DNA from: Psychrobacter immobilis
Lineage (GTDB): Bacteria; Pseudomonadota; Gammaproteobacteria; Pseudomonadales; Moraxellaceae
DNA: 64,000 nt
Direction: 5' to 3'
Assembly: GCA_904846265.1 (NCBI GenBank)
Contig: CAJHAA010000015.1
Span: forward strand, 1 to 64,000
In this document: one piece after another, positions 11,219-25,877 of the stretch
How positions within the stretch are numbered: the first letter of the stretch is position 1
How the letters are laid out: each line of letters starts with the position of its first letter
Made by a program: the position numbers and the translations under genes
Notes under the pieces: model-generated
Told to the model about the DNA's origin: nothing
The model's database searches: none
The model's input: only the letters and a program-made list of their open reading frames with translations

Positions 11219-12787
11219 ATGAGAAGCACTGCACCAAGAAACAATAAGCTCAAACCGTCAAGCAACCTTATCATGAATGGTAGCGTCCGCGTCCGCGTCA
11301 TTCGCACTTTACTGGCGATTCAAAATGGTCAGTCGCTTGCAAGCGTCCTTGATCCGCTACTAAACAGTTTGCATGACGGGGATAAAGGTTTTGCTCATGC
11401 GCTATTGTTGACGACGTTGCGCCAATGGTACGCCCTTGAGCGTCTACTCGATAGTCTGGCTGATAACTCTATTGATGAAAAAGAAGTACGTACGACTATT
11501 CAAGTAGGTCTAACGCAGCTACTCTATTTGCAAGTGGCTGACCATGCGGCGATTCATGAAACGGTTGAAGCAGCAAAAGAAATTGAGTTTGCGCATGCGA
11601 CGGGTTTAATCAACGCCATTTTGCGTAAAGTTGCTAAGAACCCAAGTAAATTCCGTAAGAAGTGTGATAAAAAACACAGCTTACCGAATTGGCTTGCCTA
11701 TCAGCTTAAGCAAGACTGGAGTGAGCAGTATGACGACCTGATGCAGGGTTTACGTCAACCTGCACCAATGTTTTTGCGCGTGAATACAGCGGTGACTTCG
11801 ATAGAGGACTATCAGCAAGCATTGGTGGAATTTGAAGTTGAAGCAGATCTGGTTGAGCTAACAAGTGGTTTTAATTTAGCCAGCTCATCGGATGCAGCCG
11901 CATCTAATGGCATATTAACCAAAGGGTTAAGATTACATCAAAGTACCGCAGTCAATGCCTTACCGCAATTCGCTGAAGGTGCGGCTAGTGTACAAGATAT
12001 GCATGCTCAGCTTGCCGCGCCGCTTATTCATAACGCTTTAATTAATAAGCTGAGTGTTAAAAACGACGATGCAGACGGCGATATAGACACCAATAACAAC
12101 GAGATCCGCATTTTAGATGCTTGTGCAGCGCCGGGTGGTAAGCTTGCTCATTGGTTAGAATTAATCAGCTCAAATGAGTCTTCGTTGTTTCACGTGAAAC
12201 AAGACGATGCTGAAACGTCGCCTGTGATTTCGAAAGTTAAGATTACTGCGATAGATAATGAGGCGCCACGTATCGAGCGTATTCATACTAATTTACAGCG
12301 CTTAAACCTAAGTCAGCACGACTTGCAGCAAGCTGAGAAAAATATTGAGCTTAATATTGTCTGTGCTGACGCAACGACATGGCAAGGCGCTGGTAAGAAA
12401 AAGAGCAAACTCGTATTTGACGCTATATTATTAGATTCACCTTGTACAGCGACTGGCGTGATTCGTCGTCATCCTGATATCAGTATCTTGCGTACCGAAG
12501 AAGACGTTGAGCAAACGGCACTCTTACAAGCGGATATCTTGCACAATCTATGGCCACAACTTAAAGTTGGCGGTTATCTGTTGTATGTCACTTGCTCTAT
12601 CCTAAAGCAAGAGAACGTCGAGCAGATGCAAGATTTCATGACTCACTATAATAATGTAGTAGCCGTTGAATTTAGCGACGATTGCAATTGGGGTATCGAA
12701 CAAGCAATCGGTCGTCAGTGCTTACCAATAGATAGCGAGAGCGGCGATGGCTTTTATTATGCCTTGCTGCAAAAAACTGCTGAATAA
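11219..12787 (+). CDS. rsmB: 16S rRNA (cytosine-967-C5)-methyltransferase RsmB
   Basis: RsmB methylates C967 of 16S rRNA using S-adenosylmethionine. An N-terminal NusB-like RNA-binding domain (about 20-160) is followed by the Rossmann methyltransferase: motif I ILDACAAPGGKLAHWLEL, the Pro-Cys motif LLDSPCTATGVIRRHPDI and the catalytic-Cys motif YVTCSILKQENVEQM. At 522 aa it is about 90 residues longer than E. coli RsmB. Two acidic, low-conservation insertions account for much of this, one before motif I (about 280-297) and one directly after it (about 315-340). The second insertion contains a perfect ParB site at 12186-12201. Confidence 0.95.
   Translation: MRSTAPRNNKLKPSSNLIMNGSVRVRVIRTLLAIQNGQSLASVLDPLLNSLHDGDKGFAHALLLTTLRQWYALERLLDSLADNSIDEKEVRTTIQVGLTQLLYLQVADHAAIHETVEAAKEIEFAHATGLINAILRKVAKNPSKFRKKCDKKHSLPNWLAYQLKQDWSEQYDDLMQGLRQPAPMFLRVNTAVTSIEDYQQALVEFEVEADLVELTSGFNLASSSDAAASNGILTKGLRLHQSTAVNALPQFAEGAASVQDMHAQLAAPLIHNALINKLSVKNDDADGDIDTNNNEIRILDACAAPGGKLAHWLELISSNESSLFHVKQDDAETSPVISKVKITAIDNEAPRIERIHTNLQRLNLSQHDLQQAEKNIELNIVCADATTWQGAGKKKSKLVFDAILLDSPCTATGVIRRHPDISILRTEEDVEQTALLQADILHNLWPQLKVGGYLLYVTCSILKQENVEQMQDFMTHYNNVVAVEFSDDCNWGIEQAIGRQCLPIDSESGDGFYYALLQKTAE
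12186..12201. promoter_or_regulatory. Perfect parS (ParB centromere) site within rsmB
   Basis: TGTTTCACGTGAAACA is a perfect 16-bp palindrome identical to the classical bacterial parS consensus; the symmetry extends to 18 bp (12185-12202). It encodes LFHVKQ in a variable RsmB insertion between motif I and the next beta strand, so it can be conserved at DNA level without disturbing the fold. Confidence 0.9.
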
Positions 12788-18044: not shown

Positions 18045-18064
18045 ATTTCACTATTGACAGAAAT
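18045..18064. promoter_or_regulatory. Shared operator-like site upstream of the GbsR-type regulator
   Basis: ATTTCACTATTGACAGAAAT overlaps a TTGACA -35 hexamer (18054-18059), 66 bp before the regulator ATG. The same 20-bp arrangement occurs before both desaturase genes. Its location suggests autoregulation. The matching -10 hexamer is weak here. Confidence 0.6.
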
Positions 18065-18129
18065 AAAAGAATAGCGCAAGATAAGTAGATAAAATAATCA
18101 AAACTTATGAAGTAGAGTACATATTAATC

Positions 18130-18648
18130 ATGAAACTAAATCCTGTGACCGAAAAATTTATCTTACATTGGGGTGAAATGGGCTCGCAGTGGGGCGTCAA
18201 TCGCACCATGTCACAGATTCATGCGTTGTTATTCATAATTGGTAAGCCACTAAATGCTGAAGAAATTACCGAAACACTTGGTGTTGCTCGCTCTAACGTC
18301 TCAAACAGTATTAAAGAGTTGCAGCATTGGGGCTTAGTACAAAAGGTCTCGATATTGGGTGATCGTCGCGATCACTTCACGACCAATACTGACGTTTGGG
18401 AGCTGGCACGCATCATTGTGGTTGAACGACAAAAGCGTGAGCTTGAGCCAACTGTACAGTTTTTACAAGAACTCATGGACAGTCCTGAATTTGAACATGA
18501 AAATAATGAGGTAAAGTCACGTATTCGTGATACCCAAGAATTCGTTAGTACCCTAACCACATGGTCATCTGAGATGCTTAAACTGCCCACAAGCATCCTC
18601 AAAAAAGTCCTAAAACTAGGCGCTAGTATTAAAAAGGTTTTACGTTAA
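18130..18648 (+). CDS. GbsR/MarR-family transcriptional regulator
   Basis: This 172-aa DNA-binding protein has a winged helix-turn-helix at about 28-90 (MSQIHALLFIIGKPLNAEEI, then TLGVARSNVSNSIKELQHWG, then wing VSILGDRRDHF) and a C-terminal helical dimerisation region. The start FILHWGEMGSQWGVNRT is characteristic of the GbsR group. It is immediately upstream of the lipid-desaturation cluster, and its own promoter and both desaturase promoters carry the same ATTTC-N8-GACAGAAA sequence over a -35 element. I infer that it represses or tunes membrane-lipid genes and itself; the effector is unknown. Confidence 0.88.
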   Translation: MKLNPVTEKFILHWGEMGSQWGVNRTMSQIHALLFIIGKPLNAEEITETLGVARSNVSNSIKELQHWGLVQKVSILGDRRDHFTTNTDVWELARIIVVERQKRELEPTVQFLQELMDSPEFEHENNEVKSRIRDTQEFVSTLTTWSSEMLKLPTSILKKVLKLGASIKKVLR

Positions 18649-18684
18649 TAGCTGTGTAATTTAAAATAAAAAATTTGCAATACA

Positions 18685-18704
18685 ATTTCTGTTTTGACAG
18701 AAAT
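18685..18704. promoter_or_regulatory. Palindromic operator upstream of desaturase 1
   Basis: ATTTCTGTTTTGACAGAAAT is a perfect inverted repeat (8-bp arms ATTTCTGT/ACAGAAAT, 4-bp spacer). It covers the -35 element of the adjacent promoter. Related sites lie at 18045-18064 and 21929-21948. This is the most symmetric of the three. Confidence 0.75.
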
Positions 18705-18722
18705 ATATGTAATAAATATAAA
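18694..18722 (+). promoter_or_regulatory. Sigma-70 promoter for desaturase 1
   Basis: Consensus -35 TTGACA (18694-18699), 17-bp spacer and -10 TATAAA (18717-18722). Transcription should start near 18730, leaving a ~70-nt leader before ATG 18801 and ruling out translation from the upstream in-frame start at 18675. Confidence 0.75.
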
Positions 18723-18800
18723 AGCCAGTTAAGTTTAAGTGAGATAAGTTTCTATAAAATAGCAGTAACAAAAAATAGTAATAACAAATGGATGTGTAAA

Positions 18801-19748
18801 ATGACAGTCAATCAGACACACGCTAATAAAGAGCCAGCCATTAAAAAGGCTGTTGCTGCAGTCGAGTGGCAGGATTTGCGCCAGTTAACGCGCGGTCAAA
18901 TCGCTTACAACGTTATTTTGCCTTATCCATTTTTGTTGTTGTCTTGGTGGTTTACTAGTCAATCATGGTATGTATTGGCGTGCGGGGCTTCTTATTTGTT
19001 TTTTGCTGCCGCATTTCGCCAAGCGCACGATGGCTATCATCATAGTTTGGGTACAGGAAAACGTACAACCACCGCCATATTATTATTGCTCAGCGTACTA
19101 TTAATGACCAGTTTGCACAGCATTCGAGCCACGCACATGGCGCATCATCGTGACCCATTGGGCGATAGTGATATTGAAGGCAGTCTAGCAAAAGACTCAT
19201 GGTGGCAAGCGCTGCTCGGCGGAATAACTTATCGACTCGATATTTATCGTCAAGGATTGCGCTTAAGTAGCCGTCGCAATAAAAGCTTGGCTTGGCTAGA
19301 ATTTGGCTTGATTGCTTTAGTCGTCTTGGTTACCTTCGTACTGACCGTATTTACTATTCCTACTCTTACGATATTAGCGCAAGTATTGATGTACCACATA
19401 TTGACCATGATGTTGGCGAATGCCAGTGTCGGCATCATTGCGGTGTGGGGCGTACACCATGATTGTGATGAGACAATCGCTCGCACCGAGCGCAATCCTT
19501 TGGTCAACTTGCTGACCTTTAATTTGCTTTATCACGTAGAGCATCATCTCTTTCCTGCTGTGCCATCCAATCATTTACCTGAGCTTGCCAAGCGTTTAGA
19601 TGCAACAGCGCCACATCTGACCAAAGCACATGTATTGCCAAGTATGGTTAACGTCATAGATTTTATTAATTATCGTTGGAACAAATTAAAGAATAAATCT
19701 CAAAATAGTAATGATAGTGACTGTCCTATTCGTAAGCGTTTTGCTTAA
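18801..19748 (+). CDS. Membrane fatty acid desaturase 1
   Basis: An integral-membrane di-iron desaturase of the fatty acid desaturase superfamily, probably introducing double bonds into acyl chains for membrane fluidity. Three histidine boxes are visible: HDGYHH (76-81), H106...H112-MA-HH116 and HVEHH (245-249). Hydrophobic segments lie at about 36-72, 90-105 and 165-215. The frame is open from 18675, but that start would fall inside the operator; ATG 18801 follows the promoter and gives 315 aa starting MTVNQTHANK. It is clearly paralogous to the gene at 22032. Regiospecificity cannot be read from the sequence, and carotenoid or sterol modification remains possible. Confidence 0.88.
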   Translation: MTVNQTHANKEPAIKKAVAAVEWQDLRQLTRGQIAYNVILPYPFLLLSWWFTSQSWYVLACGASYLFFAAAFRQAHDGYHHSLGTGKRTTTAILLLLSVLLMTSLHSIRATHMAHHRDPLGDSDIEGSLAKDSWWQALLGGITYRLDIYRQGLRLSSRRNKSLAWLEFGLIALVVLVTFVLTVFTIPTLTILAQVLMYHILTMMLANASVGIIAVWGVHHDCDETIARTERNPLVNLLTFNLLYHVEHHLFPAVPSNHLPELAKRLDATAPHLTKAHVLPSMVNVIDFINYRWNKLKNKSQNSNDSDCPIRKRFA

Positions 19749-19775
19749 TCAGTAGGCTAAATAAAATCAAGATAC

Positions 19776-19795
19776 TTATCCACCAATTATCCACA
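19776..19795. promoter_or_regulatory. Pair of DnaA boxes
   Basis: TTATCCACC (19776-19784) and the consensus TTATCCACA (19787-19795) are in tandem, 2 bp apart, in the gap before the small membrane protein. They could be DnaA binding or titration sites, or control of the next gene. Confidence 0.45.
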
Positions 19796-19841
19796 GGAAT
19801 TTCATTGGCTTTGGCAACGCCGTATTTATACTGAATTAACG

Positions 19842-20366
19842 ATGAATGTTAATGGGATAAATAGAATGAAAACGAATAATGAGTTAGGTGCGTATCCTTA
19901 TCTACAAGTGATTATTTTGTTTGCAGGGTTTGGTAGCTTAGTTGGTGGAGTGATTGCAGAGCTGGCTTTATTGTTCATTTTTAGGAATGCGGATTTTGCC
20001 CAAATTGGTTACCAGCCATTACTCTATGTTGGTCTGCTTGGTTTTATTCCTGCTTTATTAACGGGTGTTATCGTCGCTTATAAGAAGATATGGCGCGGTG
20101 ATCACAAGAGTCTACGCACGACATTTTTAGTGGGGTTTATAACGTCAGCAGGTTATATGGGTGCAATCATCCTATATTTAGGCATCAACTCATGGATGGA
20201 GGTTGGCGTGCTACTGGCCTTTATGATTGGTATAGGATTGTTTGGCGCAATCAATTCAGCGATTGCCAGCCGCATTGCTTTACCAAAAGTACGTAAAAGT
20301 CATTTTGATCTTAGTACTAAAAAAGTAGACGATGGCTATAACGGATTAAGTTTTACTAAACGATAA
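19842..20366 (+). CDS. Four-helix membrane protein of unknown function (copy 1)
   Basis: A 174-aa polytopic protein with hydrophobic segments at about 21-48, 58-80, 98-118 and 124-148, ending in a charged tail. No enzymatic motif was recognised. It resembles the protein at 21439: both share a GG[AV]I region after a first helix, L[GL][LF][IL]P[AS]L[LF]TG in the second and an IALPK near the end. The in-frame ATG at 19866 is an alternative start. It follows desaturase 1 by 93 bp, mirroring copy 2, which precedes desaturase 2. A role beside the desaturases is inferred only from position. Confidence 0.75.
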   Translation: MNVNGINRMKTNNELGAYPYLQVIILFAGFGSLVGGVIAELALLFIFRNADFAQIGYQPLLYVGLLGFIPALLTGVIVAYKKIWRGDHKSLRTTFLVGFITSAGYMGAIILYLGINSWMEVGVLLAFMIGIGLFGAINSAIASRIALPKVRKSHFDLSTKKVDDGYNGLSFTKR

Positions 20367-20389
20367 GCGAAAAATATAGGGAGTAGGAC

Positions 20390-21355
20390 ATGAATATTTT
20401 AATCAGTGGTGGCTCAGGCTTTTTAGGCAGTGCTTTTAGTGACGAGCTGATCAAACGCTATCGTACGCAGGATAAGGACTTACACATTACATGGCTAACA
20501 CGCGATAGCAGCCAAACGCATCCTGACGCGATCAGCATGATGACCTACGATGAGCTAGCGAGTTCGGATAAAAGCTTTGATGTTATCTTAAATCTAGCAG
20601 GCGCAGGCATTGCTGACTCGCGCTGGAGCGATGCGCGCAAAGAGCAGTTGCTCGCCAGCCGTATCAAGCCTACCGAATCCTTATTGGCATTTATTAAGCG
20701 CACCAGTATTAAGCCCAAGCTAATGGTCAGCGGCTCTGCGATTGGCTGGTATGGCGCACAAGGCGATAAACCTCTTACCGAAAGCAGTGGTTTTGAAACT
20801 GATTTTGCCCATCAATTATGTCATGAATGGGAGCAGTTAGCGCTCAAAGCCACTAAACATGGCGTGCCTGTGGCTATCGTGCGCACTGGGGTGGTTATCC
20901 ATCCTGATGGCGGGATGCTTGGTAAGTTATTAACCCCATTTAAAATGGGCGTTGGTGGGCAGTTAGGTGATGGCAAACAAATCATGAGCTGGATCAGTCG
21001 TGAAGACTGGGTTGGGGCGGTGATATTCATCATTGAAAAGCATCTTGCTAATTATGCGGACACTCAGACTATCGATGATCACTCGTTAGAAACTATCAAT
21101 GATACGCCGGTGCTGGTGTATAACCTCACTGCGCCTAATCCAGTGACCAATCATGCTTTTACCAAAACGCTTGGAGCATGGCTACACCGTCCTACCTTTT
21201 TTACTTTACCCAATTTTCTGCTTAAGCTGATATTTGGTGAGATGTCGACGCTACTAATTGATGGTCAAAAGGTAGTGCCGCAAGCATTACAGGACGCAGG
21301 TTATGATTTTAAACAGCCAACACTGAAGCAAGCTTTAGAAGAGCAAAAGTCATAG
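20390..21355 (+). CDS. TIGR01777-family NAD(P)-dependent epimerase/dehydratase (YfcH-like)
   Basis: An extended short-chain dehydrogenase-like protein of 321 aa. The N-terminal Rossmann motif ILISGGSGFLGSAF binds NAD(P), followed by VILNLAGAGIADSRW, SGSAIGWYG and VRTGVVIHPDGGMLGKLL, all typical of the YfcH/SulA-type family, and a C-terminal domain with LNPVT-like YNLTAPNPVTN and LP. The substrate is unknown for the family. The start has the site GGGAGTAGG 5-13 nt upstream. It separates the two membrane-protein/desaturase pairs and is probably co-transcribed with the gene before it (23-bp gap). Confidence 0.9.
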   Translation: MNILISGGSGFLGSAFSDELIKRYRTQDKDLHITWLTRDSSQTHPDAISMMTYDELASSDKSFDVILNLAGAGIADSRWSDARKEQLLASRIKPTESLLAFIKRTSIKPKLMVSGSAIGWYGAQGDKPLTESSGFETDFAHQLCHEWEQLALKATKHGVPVAIVRTGVVIHPDGGMLGKLLTPFKMGVGGQLGDGKQIMSWISREDWVGAVIFIIEKHLANYADTQTIDDHSLETINDTPVLVYNLTAPNPVTNHAFTKTLGAWLHRPTFFTLPNFLLKLIFGEMSTLLIDGQKVVPQALQDAGYDFKQPTLKQALEEQKS

Positions 21356-21369
21356 ATACTTATGAAGGT

Positions 21370-21423
21370 TGTTTCATGTGAAATGTAGTTGTCATCATAG
21401 GATTCTTTGTTTCATGTGAAACC
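21370..21423. promoter_or_regulatory. Two degenerate parS-like sites
   Basis: TGTTTCATGTGAAATG (21370-21385, 13/16) and TGTTTCATGTGAAACC (21408-21423, 14/16) lie 38 bp apart in the 83-bp gap after the epimerase. Both replace the central CACGTG by CATGTG. They may be weak ParB sites or a remnant of a duplicated hairpin. Confidence 0.45.
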
Positions 21424-21438
21424 TAAAGAGGGGTTTTT

Positions 21439-21915
21439 ATGAGTAAAGTTTATATCAACGCTACAATTACTGTAACCAACTATCCTAAAGGTAAGGTGAT
21501 AGGAACTTATGGATTATTAGGCGGTGCGATAGGTGGGATATTTCTATGGTTAAGCGTAGCAGTACCTGATGTCTTGTTTAATGATTATAATTTTGGTGCG
21601 CCCGAAATGTTCAATATTACTAACGTCTATTTCATCACTGCATTTAATGTAGTTTGGCTACTAGGGTTTGCGCTGATTTTCTATATAATTTTTAGATTTA
21701 TATTAGGACTGTTACCTTCGTTATTTACAGGCTGGATTCTTGCGCAAGTAAATGCTTACTGTAATTATAAAGGCCTTCTTATCTCTTTAATTACGGGTGG
21801 TTTTATGGGCTTTGCCTTTCTATCTTTACTAGAGCTACCTCTTATTATGCAGGTTTTGACAGGCGGTGTCAGCGCTATCATCACGGGTCTGATCGCACTA
21901 CCTAAACATAAATAA
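21439..21915 (+). CDS. Four-helix membrane protein of unknown function (copy 2)
   Basis: A 158-aa membrane protein with about four hydrophobic segments (about 21-42, 60-98, 105-135 and 138-152), ending IALPKHK. Likely a diverged paralogue of the protein at 19842, judged from helix order and the shared LPSLFTG-like and IALPK motifs. A ribosome site AAAGAGGGG lies 5-14 nt upstream of ATG. Function is unknown. It precedes desaturase 2, but that gene has its own operator and probable promoter. Confidence 0.72.
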   Translation: MSKVYINATITVTNYPKGKVIGTYGLLGGAIGGIFLWLSVAVPDVLFNDYNFGAPEMFNITNVYFITAFNVVWLLGFALIFYIIFRFILGLLPSLFTGWILAQVNAYCNYKGLLISLITGGFMGFAFLSLLELPLIMQVLTGGVSAIITGLIALPKHK

Positions 21916-21928
21916 AGTTTACCTAAGT

Positions 21929-21948
21929 ATTTCATTTTTGACAGAAAC
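21929..21948. promoter_or_regulatory. Shared operator-like site upstream of desaturase 2
   Basis: ATTTCATTTTTGACAGAAAC matches the sites at 18045 and 18685 and again overlaps TTGACA (21938-21943). The left arm is less symmetric and the -10 hexamer is weak, suggesting a promoter of different strength under the same regulator. Confidence 0.65.
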
Positions 21949-22031: not shown

Positions 22032-22880
22032 ATGCGTCATCCTTCGTTAGCCAGTGTTGAATGGCAAGATTTGCGTCAGCTTAGTCTGAGCGAGACCGTT
22101 TATAATATTTTTTTATCGTTACCTTTTTTATTGCTGTCATGGTGGAGCGCGTGGCAGGAGTTTTGGCTACTTGCGCTGGCTGCGACATTTTTCTTTTTTA
22201 CCGCCGCACTTAGACAAGCCCATGATTGCTATCACCGCACTTTAGGTGTGAGTAAAGTCGCCACAGAGCTCATGCTATTTATGCTGAGTATCACGATGCT
22301 CTGTAGTACGCATGCCATTCGTCATACTCATCTTAACCATCATAGAGATCCGCTTGGAGACAGTGATGTCGAAGGTAACTGGGCACGCCTGCCGTGGTAT
22401 CAGGCGATATTAGGTGGTGGTGTTTTTTCGATTATGATTCAGTGGTTTGGTTTGACGCATGGTAGCCGCCGCAATCGTATGCTCGTTGCCTTTGACATAT
22501 TGCTTATTTTTGCAGTGATTGCCGCTGCTTGTATCACGATGCATCCAGTTTTGATGTATCACGTATTGGTGATGATATTGGCCAATACGATGGTTGGTTT
22601 CTTTGCGGTATGGAGCGTCCATCATGGCTGTGATGAGGTGGTATATGCCCGCAGTGAGCGTCATCCGTTGATTAATCTACTGACCTTTAACTTGCTCTAT
22701 CACATCGAGCATCATCTATTCCCAGCAGTGCCGACCAATCACTTACCAATACTGGCTAAGCGCTTAGATACCGCTGCACCGCAGTGGACACAGCAGTCCG
22801 TCATTCCTTTTTTAGCGCCAGTCAATAAGTATCCAGTAGTACACATGATTGAACATAGTGAGCATGAACGAAAAATCTAA
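22032..22880 (+). CDS. Membrane fatty acid desaturase 2
   Basis: Second integral-membrane desaturase (282 aa), a paralogue of desaturase 1 throughout: both start with VEWQDLRQL and share RQAHD, HHRDPLGDSD, EGN/S, SRRN and HHLFPAVP. Histidine clusters: H64-DCYH68, H94...H98-H100..HH104 and HIEHH (224-228). The first box reads HDCYHR where copy 1 has HDGYHH, so the last histidine is absent. It has its own operator-like site 84 bp upstream. A strong ribosome site (AAGGAGAA) precedes the ATG. The two may differ in chain position or temperature response; that is inference. Confidence 0.88.
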   Translation: MRHPSLASVEWQDLRQLSLSETVYNIFLSLPFLLLSWWSAWQEFWLLALAATFFFFTAALRQAHDCYHRTLGVSKVATELMLFMLSITMLCSTHAIRHTHLNHHRDPLGDSDVEGNWARLPWYQAILGGGVFSIMIQWFGLTHGSRRNRMLVAFDILLIFAVIAAACITMHPVLMYHVLVMILANTMVGFFAVWSVHHGCDEVVYARSERHPLINLLTFNLLYHIEHHLFPAVPTNHLPILAKRLDTAAPQWTQQSVIPFLAPVNKYPVVHMIEHSEHERKI

Positions 22881-23531: not shown

Positions 23532-24605
23532 ATGTGGTTCTTTATCATTTTCACTCAGTTGCTAGCTGTTATGACCAGCGTTCTTCTCTGCTGGTTTGTA
23601 AAGCCAAAAACTACGTCTGCTAAAATCGCGCTGATAGCTGCTGTCTTTATTCTTAATAATGTGGCTCTCATTTATGGTTTGACTGAGTTTTGGGGTGAGC
23701 GCTTTCATGTCTATCTGGTCGTTAGTATTTTACAAGGTTTTATGCTTTATGCTGGTTTGATGACCGCTACGGTGGCGCTACTCGTTTATCAGGTCATCAA
23801 GCGAAAATCTCGTCCAATGCTTTTGCGCGCCTTTGCTATTACGACTTATGTCGCCATTGTTAGCTTAGCGGTATTTAATGCTTACTCGCCCGTCGTACAT
23901 CGTCTAACAGTCATTATAGATAAGCCGCTAGCTAAGCCAATGGATATCGCGCTTGTCTCTGATACGCATCTGGGTAGATGGTTTGGTAATCGACAGATAA
24001 AAAAGATGGTAAGCCTTATCGATGCGCAACATCCCGATGTCGTGTTGATCGCTGGTGACATTATGAATGACAATACTATTGCTTACGATAATACCAATAT
24101 GCATGAGCAGTTATCAAAGCTAAAGGCACCGCTTGGCGTCTATGCGACTTTAGGCAATCACGATTATTTCGGTTATGACCAACAGATCACACAGGCGGTG
24201 GAAGAGGCTGGCATCAAAGCGCTTGATAATGAGAGTGTGCTATTAGATGATTCAGTATGGCTGGTGGGGCGCTCAGACGATATTGATCGTACCAGACTGT
24301 CAGCCGAGGAATTATTGACACAAGTAGAAACAGATAAACCAGTGATATTTTTGGAGCATCGTCCTAGCGCGATGGATGAGGTCAGCGCCCTGCCAGTCGA
24401 TTTGCATCTGTCTGGGCATACCCATGGCGGGCAGATATTTCCACTAACGCTATTGATGAATTGGTTGACACAGCTAAACTATGGCAGCAAAAAAATAGTC
24501 GATACGCAGTTTTTGGTGACCTCTGGTTATGGTATCGGTCCCGTACCATTTAGACTGGGAACGCGTTCTGAGATTTGGATAATTACGTTGCAGTCTGGTG
24601 TATGA
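23532..24605 (+). CDS. Membrane-anchored metallophosphoesterase 1
   Basis: Calcineurin-like phosphoesterase of the YkuE-like type (357 aa). The N-terminal ~120 residues form about four transmembrane helices. The catalytic domain follows with all metal-binding motifs: D144-T-H146, G-D176 (GDIMND), GNH210-D and SGH296-T-H298-GGQ. Substrate unknown; relatives act on phospholipid-like or nucleotide phosphodiesters at the membrane. It is a tandem paralogue of the next gene (similar KPLAKP..IA...D.H.GR and LSGHTH.GQIFP). A terminator separates the two, so each has its own transcript. Confidence 0.88.
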   Translation: MWFFIIFTQLLAVMTSVLLCWFVKPKTTSAKIALIAAVFILNNVALIYGLTEFWGERFHVYLVVSILQGFMLYAGLMTATVALLVYQVIKRKSRPMLLRAFAITTYVAIVSLAVFNAYSPVVHRLTVIIDKPLAKPMDIALVSDTHLGRWFGNRQIKKMVSLIDAQHPDVVLIAGDIMNDNTIAYDNTNMHEQLSKLKAPLGVYATLGNHDYFGYDQQITQAVEEAGIKALDNESVLLDDSVWLVGRSDDIDRTRLSAEELLTQVETDKPVIFLEHRPSAMDEVSALPVDLHLSGHTHGGQIFPLTLLMNWLTQLNYGSKKIVDTQFLVTSGYGIGPVPFRLGTRSEIWIITLQSGV

Positions 24606-24734: not shown

Positions 24735-25877
24735 ATGCGCTACGCATTTTTTATCACCATTTTTGCGCTATTGCAGTTGTTTAGTGTCGGTGCAGCTCTA
24801 AGCGTGCAATGGTGGTTACAGCCTTGGCAGACAGCAGGTTTGCAAACTTCGGTATGGGTCATCATATTCATTATTACCAACGGTTTGCTGCTACTCAGTG
24901 TCAATAGAGCATTTGCCAATAGCTATCGCTGGATCAGTGGTTGGATGTTGGTCATGCATTTTATGTTATTGACAGCATTAGTTACCAGCCTATTTTATGG
25001 TGGATATTGGTTGGTCACATCGCTAACCGGTGATGTACTCGCTACATCTGCGCCAGTCGATTTTGGATTGCGCATATTGGCATTGGCAGTGTTTATCGGA
25101 TTGTTTGTTTATGCCCTATATAGCGCTTATGCGCCTGTGGTACGTGAGTTATCTATTTATATTGATAAGCCTTTGGCTAAGCCGCTACGTATTGCGGTCG
25201 CTAGCGATTTGCATATCGGGAGATTGTTTGGGATTGGCGCAATAGATAGACTGCATCGTCTGATTGTGCAGCATAAAGCAGACATATTGCTGATGCCGGG
25301 CGACATCATGGATGACAATATACAGGCATTTACTAAATATAAAATGGCAGAAAGCTTGGCTGAGTTATGCAAAAGCTTGCCGTATGGGGTCTATGCGACT
25401 TTAGGTAATCATGATTTATACGGGCACGAGCAGCCGATTGTCCAAGCGTTGCGTGCTGCTGGCGTGCAGTTGTTAAATGATGAAGTCATACGTCTCACAC
25501 ACCAAGGGCAAGTACTTTGGTTGATGGGACGCTTCGACAACCATAAGCGTCAGCGCGTCCCGACGACTGAGCTGTTGACGCAGGTCAATAGCGCTGAGCC
25601 ATTGATATTGTTAGACCACAGACCAAGTGATATTGCCGAGCACAGCCAAATGCCGATTGATTTGCAGCTCTCTGGGCATACCCATAACGGTCAGATATTC
25701 CCCGCCAACTTCATTGTCAGTGCTATCAATCGCTTGGGCTATGGCTATGAGGTTATCGATAATAGTCACTTTGTGGTGTCGTCTGGTTACGGCTTTTGGG
25801 GCATTCCATTTCGCTTGGGTTCGCGCTCAGAGATTTGGCTGATCACTTTGAATGGTCAGGTTGAAGATAACGTTTAA
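24735..25877 (+). CDS. Membrane-anchored metallophosphoesterase 2
   Basis: Paralogue of the preceding gene (380 aa), with an N-terminal membrane region of about four helices followed by the calcineurin-like domain: SDLHIGR, GDIMDDN, LGNHDLYG and LSGHTHNGQIFP. All metal ligands of the fold appear present (D, H, D, N, H, HxH). The membrane part is much more diverged than the enzyme domain. It has a clear start (AAGGATTCTTC before ATG). A 15-bp degenerate tandem repeat begins across its stop codon. Confidence 0.88.
   Translation: MRYAFFITIFALLQLFSVGAALSVQWWLQPWQTAGLQTSVWVIIFIITNGLLLLSVNRAFANSYRWISGWMLVMHFMLLTALVTSLFYGGYWLVTSLTGDVLATSAPVDFGLRILALAVFIGLFVYALYSAYAPVVRELSIYIDKPLAKPLRIAVASDLHIGRLFGIGAIDRLHRLIVQHKADILLMPGDIMDDNIQAFTKYKMAESLAELCKSLPYGVYATLGNHDLYGHEQPIVQALRAAGVQLLNDEVIRLTHQGQVLWLMGRFDNHKRQRVPTTELLTQVNSAEPLILLDHRPSDIAEHSQMPIDLQLSGHTHNGQIFPANFIVSAINRLGYGYEVIDNSHFVVSSGYGFWGIPFRLGSRSEIWLITLNGQVEDNV

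Follow-up and report, generated by a model that had tools for sequence, protein, structure and literature searches.

We analyzed a 64,000-nucleotide stretch of the Psychrobacter immobilis genome (assembly GCA_904846265.1, contig CAJHAA010000015.1, positions 1 to 64,000; referred to here as the window), in which a 20-base-pair (bp) site precedes gbsR, a gene for a GbsR/MarR-type winged-helix regulator, and each of two genes for desaturase-like proteins. Sequence comparisons indicate that this palindromic site is very probably the operator of an autoregulated GbsR-type repressor encoded by gbsR itself (18130-18648), which would govern both desaturase units. Exact copies of the site are confined to this cluster, the site is conserved with the regulator and lost with it, and the same site type accompanies regulator relatives in three bacterial phyla.

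The site within Psychrobacter

A sequence-only reading of the window had placed three related 20-mers at 18045, 18685 and 21929, and all three were found there. The five-base spacer given for them had to be corrected: four bases separate ATTTC from TTGACAGAAA, and the three sites fit the pattern exactly with N4 and only at 2-3 mismatches with N5. The exact motif, ATTTC-N4-TTGACAGAAA-Y, has three copies, all in the cluster, and no others in the 3,444,614-base genome, 0.0075 copies being expected from the base composition of the window. The right arm overlaps a TTGACA -35 hexamer in all three, and the site before desaturase 1 is perfectly palindromic, with 8-bp arms around a 4-bp spacer, and has a TTGACA-N17-TATAAA promoter, both as had been described. 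When up to three mismatches were allowed, the genome contained 101 matches versus 128 for the reversed pattern. There is thus no excess at looser matching, and therefore the signal is confined to the cluster. The features of the cluster are as follows.

18045..18064, + strand: putative operator O1, before gbsR, ATTTCACTATTGACAGAAAT; right arm perfect, left arm with two mismatches
18054-18059 and 18077-18082: O1 promoter, -35 TTGACA (overlapped by O1) and conserved -10 CAAGAT, N17
18130..18648, + strand: gbsR, GbsR/MarR-type winged-helix regulator, 172 amino acids
18685..18704, + strand: putative operator O2, before desaturase 1, ATTTCTGTTTTGACAGAAAT; perfect palindrome ATTTCTGT-N4-ACAGAAAT
18694-18699 and 18717-18722: O2 promoter, -35 TTGACA (overlapped by O2) and -10 TATAAA, N17
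18801..19748, + strand: desaturase-like gene 1, PF00487, 315 amino acids counted from ATG
19842..20366, + strand: predicted membrane protein (by appearance), no match in Pfam and NCBIfam
20390..21355, + strand: TIGR01777-family oxidoreductase (Epimerase and DUF1731)
21439..21915, + strand: predicted membrane protein (by appearance), no match in Pfam and NCBIfam
21929..21948, + strand: putative operator O3, before desaturase 2, ATTTCATTTTTGACAGAAAC; three mismatches to the palindrome; TTGACA at 21938-21943
22032..22880, + strand: desaturase-like gene 2, PF00487, 282 amino acids
22922..23383, + strand: DCC1-like thiol-disulfide oxidoreductase, PF04134, starting 41 bp after desaturase 2

Several other sites of the same genome were considered as targets and rejected. 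The best further match (C5:157646, one mismatch) lies before an SCP2-like gene (so called by appearance), which is present in 103 of 105 Psychrobacter genomes. In a comparison of 12 of 30 loci (six with and six without gbsR), its left arm varied among gbsR-containing genomes and its right part was also kept in genomes lacking gbsR, so that this fourth target looks like chance. Five sites with two mismatches were inspected by eye: three (L005, L007, L009) are located within open reading frames (ORFs), for one (L006), the closest start in the same direction is some 360 bp away, and the last (L008) has no start nearby. A promoter scan yielded 12 candidates compared with 15.7 in shuffled sequences, and the three cluster promoters were not among them.

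Scanning of Psychrobacter gbsR orthologues and desaturases, proposed together with the sequence-only reading, revealed the motif, at up to three mismatches, within 200 bp before 35 of 36 gbsR genes, and also before 50 of 50 desaturases; the latter (25 each of desaturase 1 and desaturase 2, from the window and the Psychrobacter loci) all have it within 330 bp upstream. These 36 loci hold 92 sites at up to two mismatches, and 200 shuffled versions of the arms gave a mean of 0.5 and a maximum of 30. Conservation within the site was then counted in the 36 loci plus the window. ACAGAAA is intact at all sites (37/37 gbsR, 25/25 desaturase 1, 25/25 desaturase 2) and ATTTC of the left arm at nearly all (34/37, 23/25 and 23/25, respectively), whereas TTGACA is intact at 37/37, 17/25 and 20/25. 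Several lineages have perfect arms although the -35 box is lost, e.g., ATTTCTGTTTAAACAGAAAT. Since the arms persist even without TTGACA, the conserved unit is the 8-4-8 palindrome ATTTCTGT-N4-ACAGAAAT, and the coincidence of operator and -35 box reflects how promoters are arranged in this lineage, not a conserved feature. The TTGACA overlap, missing from 8 of 25 desaturase-1 and 5 of 25 desaturase-2 sites, was accordingly dropped as a defining feature. With regard to -10 elements, the gbsR promoter has a weak conserved one at N17 (CAAGAT and variants, all CANNNT) and the desaturase 1 promoter has TATAAA at N17 in 16 of 25 cases; no conserved -10 was detected at N15-N19 among the 25 desaturase 2 sites.

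The two desaturases are paralogues (55% identical), and the sites might resemble each other because TTGACA promoters were copied along with the duplicated genes. It is hard to credit this explanation: the palindrome also precedes the non-homologous gbsR, DUF2269, DCC1 and TIGR01777 genes, the flanks differ, and the retention of the arms after loss of TTGACA already contradicts copying.

The distribution of the regulator within the genus provided a natural control. Among 105 Psychrobacter genomes, gbsR is present in 50 and absent from 55, and the desaturases occur in 46 (absent from 59), all of them within the 50; the TIGR01777 gene is found in 101, including genomes without gbsR, and 20 of the 55 gbsR-lacking genomes were fetched at this gene. 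SUA5 precedes it in all 20 and phosphoesterases follow in 18, and 19 of the 20 stretches contain no site at up to two mismatches. Genome-wide, at least two sites at up to one mismatch were detected in 48 of 50 genomes with gbsR versus 6 of 55 without it (mean sites per genome 3.14 and 0.58; reversed pattern 4.86 and 4.84). As related genomes owe the presence or lack of the entire cluster to common descent, p-values overstate the independence of these observations.

Regulator relatives, recognition helix and operator base

To cover the regulator family more widely, 82 relatives were confirmed and 80 loci were kept. A site at up to three mismatches was found within 260 bp upstream of the gbsR relative in 79 of the 80, at 43-100% protein identity, L104 being the single miss. 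Within 200 bp, besides the 35 of 36 Psychrobacter loci, it is present in both Neisseria loci and in 41 of the 42 distant ones, and dinucleotide shuffles reached three mismatches in 3/360, 0/20 and 0/420 cases, respectively. In the 42 distant loci, which include Chromatiales, sphingomonads, Opitutales and Planctomycetota, the best site starts 30-73 bp ahead of where the match to gbsR begins; the operator thus reaches Verrucomicrobiota and Planctomycetota. A second operator directly after gbsR and before the next gene was noticed in many of L068-L084 and in L093, L147, L154, L158 and L159; regulator and neighbors may therefore be separate units under one site type.

The gbsR product matches the MarR_2 profile (1.4e-10) and the CudC model (3e-10, which is far under the CudC cut-off). 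Its nearest solved protein is Mj223 (PDB 1ku9) by both sequence (2.8e-12) and fold (2.8e-8), and a MarR-type winged helix with GbsR/Mj223 likeness goes together here with an inverted-repeat operator with 4-bp spacing beside its own and target genes. The fold predicted from the single sequence is modest (predicted local distance difference test, pLDDT, 78.5); because full-length superpositions were poor (root-mean-square deviation 15-17 in the best PDB rows), the winged helix alone was taken from it. The recognition helix comprises residues 54-66 of the model, starting at R of RSN. The gene context sets the protein apart from the osmoprotectant group (GbsR/OpuAR/OpcR), as its neighbors are SUA5, desaturases, TIGR01777 and DCC1-like genes and not betaine-synthesis or Opu genes, and from the CydE/CioR group with adjacent cydAB, as no CydA was detected among the neighboring genes tested.

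A survey of the class revealed a relative in 25 of 274 genomes; 17 class stretches and 3 family stretches were fetched, and L152 gave no match. CydA was recognized by a GRQPW motif in a long frame. It is located near the regulator in seven fetched loci (L142, L143, L144 on the other strand, L145, L146, L148 and L157), and all seven regulators have the helix S-RSNVS-M/V. Five of them (all except L144 and L146) have a site of the form TTTCAGTAATT-N2-TGAAA, e.g., ATTTCAGTAATTACTGAAAC. The remaining relatives have an A-RSN helix and mostly ATTTCTGT-N4-ACAGAAAT. Among distinct proteins with sites at up to three mismatches, the right arm is T-type in 76, A-type in 1 and another base in 2 of the A-helix proteins, and A-type in 6 of 6 S-helix proteins; the sites were picked by T-type likeness, and the count omits four poor sites (all S-helix) and four proteins without the pattern. 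A tree was built from 70 rows, with Psychrobacter thinned and five rows left out, and in it all 11 S-helix rows grouped as one clade (support 100/99). Operator base and recognition helix therefore differ jointly between two clades. Two of the 80 loci (L100 and L104), both from Chromatiales, hold S-helix, CydE-like regulators with no CydA motif in the searched stretch. Cytochrome-bd flags at L078, L096 and L098 proved false.

Several observations weigh against the assignment of this palindrome to GbsR. The helix/base pairing is one split in the tree, so Fisher's p of 1.9e-8 overstates it; among the A-helix relatives, one carries the A-type base and two carry a base of neither type. Most gbsR and desaturase 2 sites deviate in the left arm, which in full length (ending GT) is intact at 9 of 37 gbsR, 22 of 25 desaturase 1 and 7 of 25 desaturase 2 sites. 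When 200-bp pieces were drawn at random from elsewhere in these loci, matches occurred in 11/360, 0/20 and 1/420 cases, which may include true cluster sites, and the reversed pattern is commoner than the real one genome-wide, so that looser matches away from the cluster mean little. L104 and the fetched S-helix relatives L144, L146 and L156 lack a good site. L171, from another Moraxellaceae genus, encodes gbsR (67%) and a desaturase-1 relative (45%), and no site at up to four mismatches was detected in its first 3.5 kilobases (kb), in which 303 bp precede gbsR. Conversely, L179, a Psychrobacter genome that is 83% complete, has a site at -703 and no gbsR in the 4.5 kb examined, possibly reflecting a recent loss of gbsR. 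The L179 operator is of the gbsR type (ATTTCACTATTGACAGAAAT) and stands between SUA5 and the MEM1 gene.

L171 and L179 would be expected if a different transcription factor read the site and the gbsR neighborhood were incidental. We regard this as improbable: the site precedes gbsR relatives in nearly every locus across a wide range of identity, tracks the presence and absence of gbsR within the genus, and is similar to the sequence footprinted with the GbsR-type CydE. Hence GbsR itself remains the favored reader of the palindrome.

Proposed regulation and the genes under the site

In the proposed model, a GbsR dimer would bind ATTTCTGT-N4-ACAGAAAT directly, with its right half on the -35 box in this genome; the bound dimer would therefore block RNA polymerase. 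Three promoters would be closed in this way: that of gbsR itself, whose autorepression would limit the regulator; that of a putative unit of desaturase 1, membrane protein, TIGR01777 oxidoreductase and membrane protein; and that of a putative desaturase 2-DCC1 unit. Some signal would free the operator, and the membrane-modification set would then be made.

The same binding could also activate the desaturase promoters, in line with the lack of a recognizable -10 before desaturase 2. This appears rather unlikely, because the site is on the -35 box and not upstream of it, and the characterized relatives GbsR, CydE and CioR are repressors in the available parts of their descriptions (PMC7396694, PMC6096048, PMC11837568).

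Both desaturases match PF00487 (83.0 and 69.8 bits, cut-off 29.7). In the profile search, no curated desaturase subfamily reached its cut-off for either protein, and their function is putatively membrane fatty-acid desaturation. A solved-structure search with desaturase 1 found no relative, and a protein search for the functional type returned nothing more specific than names like "fatty acid desaturase" among the 120 of 809 matches listed.

In 11 loci of other Moraxellaceae genera, the site precedes gbsR in 10, and in 8 a further site precedes a DCC1-like, DUF2269, TIGR01777 or desaturase gene (a desaturase in L165 only); in L167 and L175, a further site is before an unidentified ORF. Outside Moraxellaceae, Pfam was run on some neighbor proteins in nine loci. 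Beside the regulator were epimerase-DoxX_3, DUF2269 and DUF4166 in L080; DoxX_3, DUF2269 and epimerase in L065; DUF4166 in L085 and L106; DCC1-like and DUF2071 in L093; and an OmpA/BON protein together with a protein with only a weak coiled-coil match in L100. In each of L069, L087 and L094, one or two proteins were tested and none had a Pfam match above cut-off, and no desaturase was detected among the neighbor proteins tested in these nine loci. From the neighborhoods annotated, the desaturases seem to have been added to a wider gene set around the regulator.

The sequence-only reading had proposed a single autoregulated GbsR-type repressor acting as a switch of membrane unsaturation in cold adaptation. 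Its first half, i.e., a shared operator, autoregulation and a GbsR-type reader, is retained here as the probable arrangement suggested by the comparisons above, and the unsaturation/cold switch is not. Release of repression at low temperature would suit the two PF00487 genes under the site and a genus known for cold-adapted members. However, no site at up to four mismatches was detected in the loci of the two other PF00487 genes of this genome, whose histidine boxes suggest the usual acyl-CoA and acyl-lipid desaturases; the regulator and small desaturases are missing from more than half of the Psychrobacter genomes; other genes neighbor the regulator outside Moraxellaceae where neighbors were identified, including in Neisseria sicca; and the 80 loci kept include none titled P. 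arcticus or P. cryohalolentis, their presence in the collection not having been checked. A cold switch is thus unlikely.

A tentative alternative, which we consider possible though rather less than even in probability, is that gbsR belongs to an ancient, phylum-crossing branch that reads ATTTCTGT-N4-ACAGAAAT, governs an uncharacterized membrane-modification regulon (epimerase/TIGR01777, DCC1, DoxX_3, DUF2269 and DUF4166; in Moraxellaceae, also oxygen-dependent small desaturases) and senses redox or membrane stress, like its sister CydE, instead of cold; a helix change would have re-set the operator base when the branches split.

Downstream of the cluster are two adjacent genes, a metallophosphoesterase (23532-24605, PF00149) and one alike by appearance (24735-25877). 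The window also contains six matches at up to three mismatches (3596, 5793, 6293, 12186-12201, 21370 and 21408; 0.38 expected) to the parS consensus TGTTTCACGTGAAACA. The match at 12186-12201 is the only exact one, and those at 21370 and 21408 sit just ahead of the gene that starts at 21439, in the intergenic gap. The window may be near the replication origin.

Comparison with known regulators

DesT and FabR repress desaturase or unsaturated-fatty-acid genes, but they are TetR-type proteins with other operators. A review of GbsR proteins distinguishes osmoprotectant, cytochrome bd, other-transporter and unknown classes, and a desaturase or TIGR01777 class was not met in the part of it that was available (PMC6207618). 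Likewise, no description of a GbsR branch tied to desaturases or TIGR01777 was found in the open-licence literature, subscription journals being mostly outside the search. For such a branch, the present analysis provides an operator defined to the base, a regulon open to testing and a contrast between sister clades, and the operator could be used to collect the regulon and thereby likely partners of several domains whose function is unknown.

Mj223, nearest in sequence and fold among solved proteins, differs in being archaeal. Bacillus subtilis GbsR and OpcR are, according to the accessible part of their description, MarR-superfamily repressors, of which OpcR blocks its promoter, as proposed here for gbsR; the GbsR operator is an inverted repeat, rich in A/T, whose half-sites are separated by 4 bp, but it is downstream of the transcription start, and both proteins control choline and osmoprotectant genes (PMC7396694). 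CioR of Chromobacterium violaceum is similarly described, in the portion of the report at hand, as a GbsR-type direct autorepressor of its own operon, which in contrast encodes cytochrome bd; 1 mM iron and zinc abolish its binding in vitro, and that portion gives no operator sequence (PMC11837568).

A close parallel is CydE of Alishewanella sp. WH16-1, a GbsR-type repressor of cytochrome bd, footprinted on TATTTCAGAAATTTCTGAAAGTTCA in the part of its description consulted (PMC6096048). The comparison was made via this footprint, and relatives beside CydA were used for the protein comparison in place of the Alishewanella protein. According to the same partial source, CydE binds to the promoter region of its own operon and represses that operon (PMC6096048), a behavior that the gbsR product would share. 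Within footprinted site 1 of CydE is TTTCAGAAATTTCTGAAA, a palindrome of the form TTTCxG...CxGAAA whose spacing equals that of the present operator (PMC6096048). The two systems differ in that positions 6 and 15 are A/T in the CydE site and T/A in the present operator, and in that CydE targets cytochrome bd and is reported there to be derepressed by sulfate (PMC6096048).

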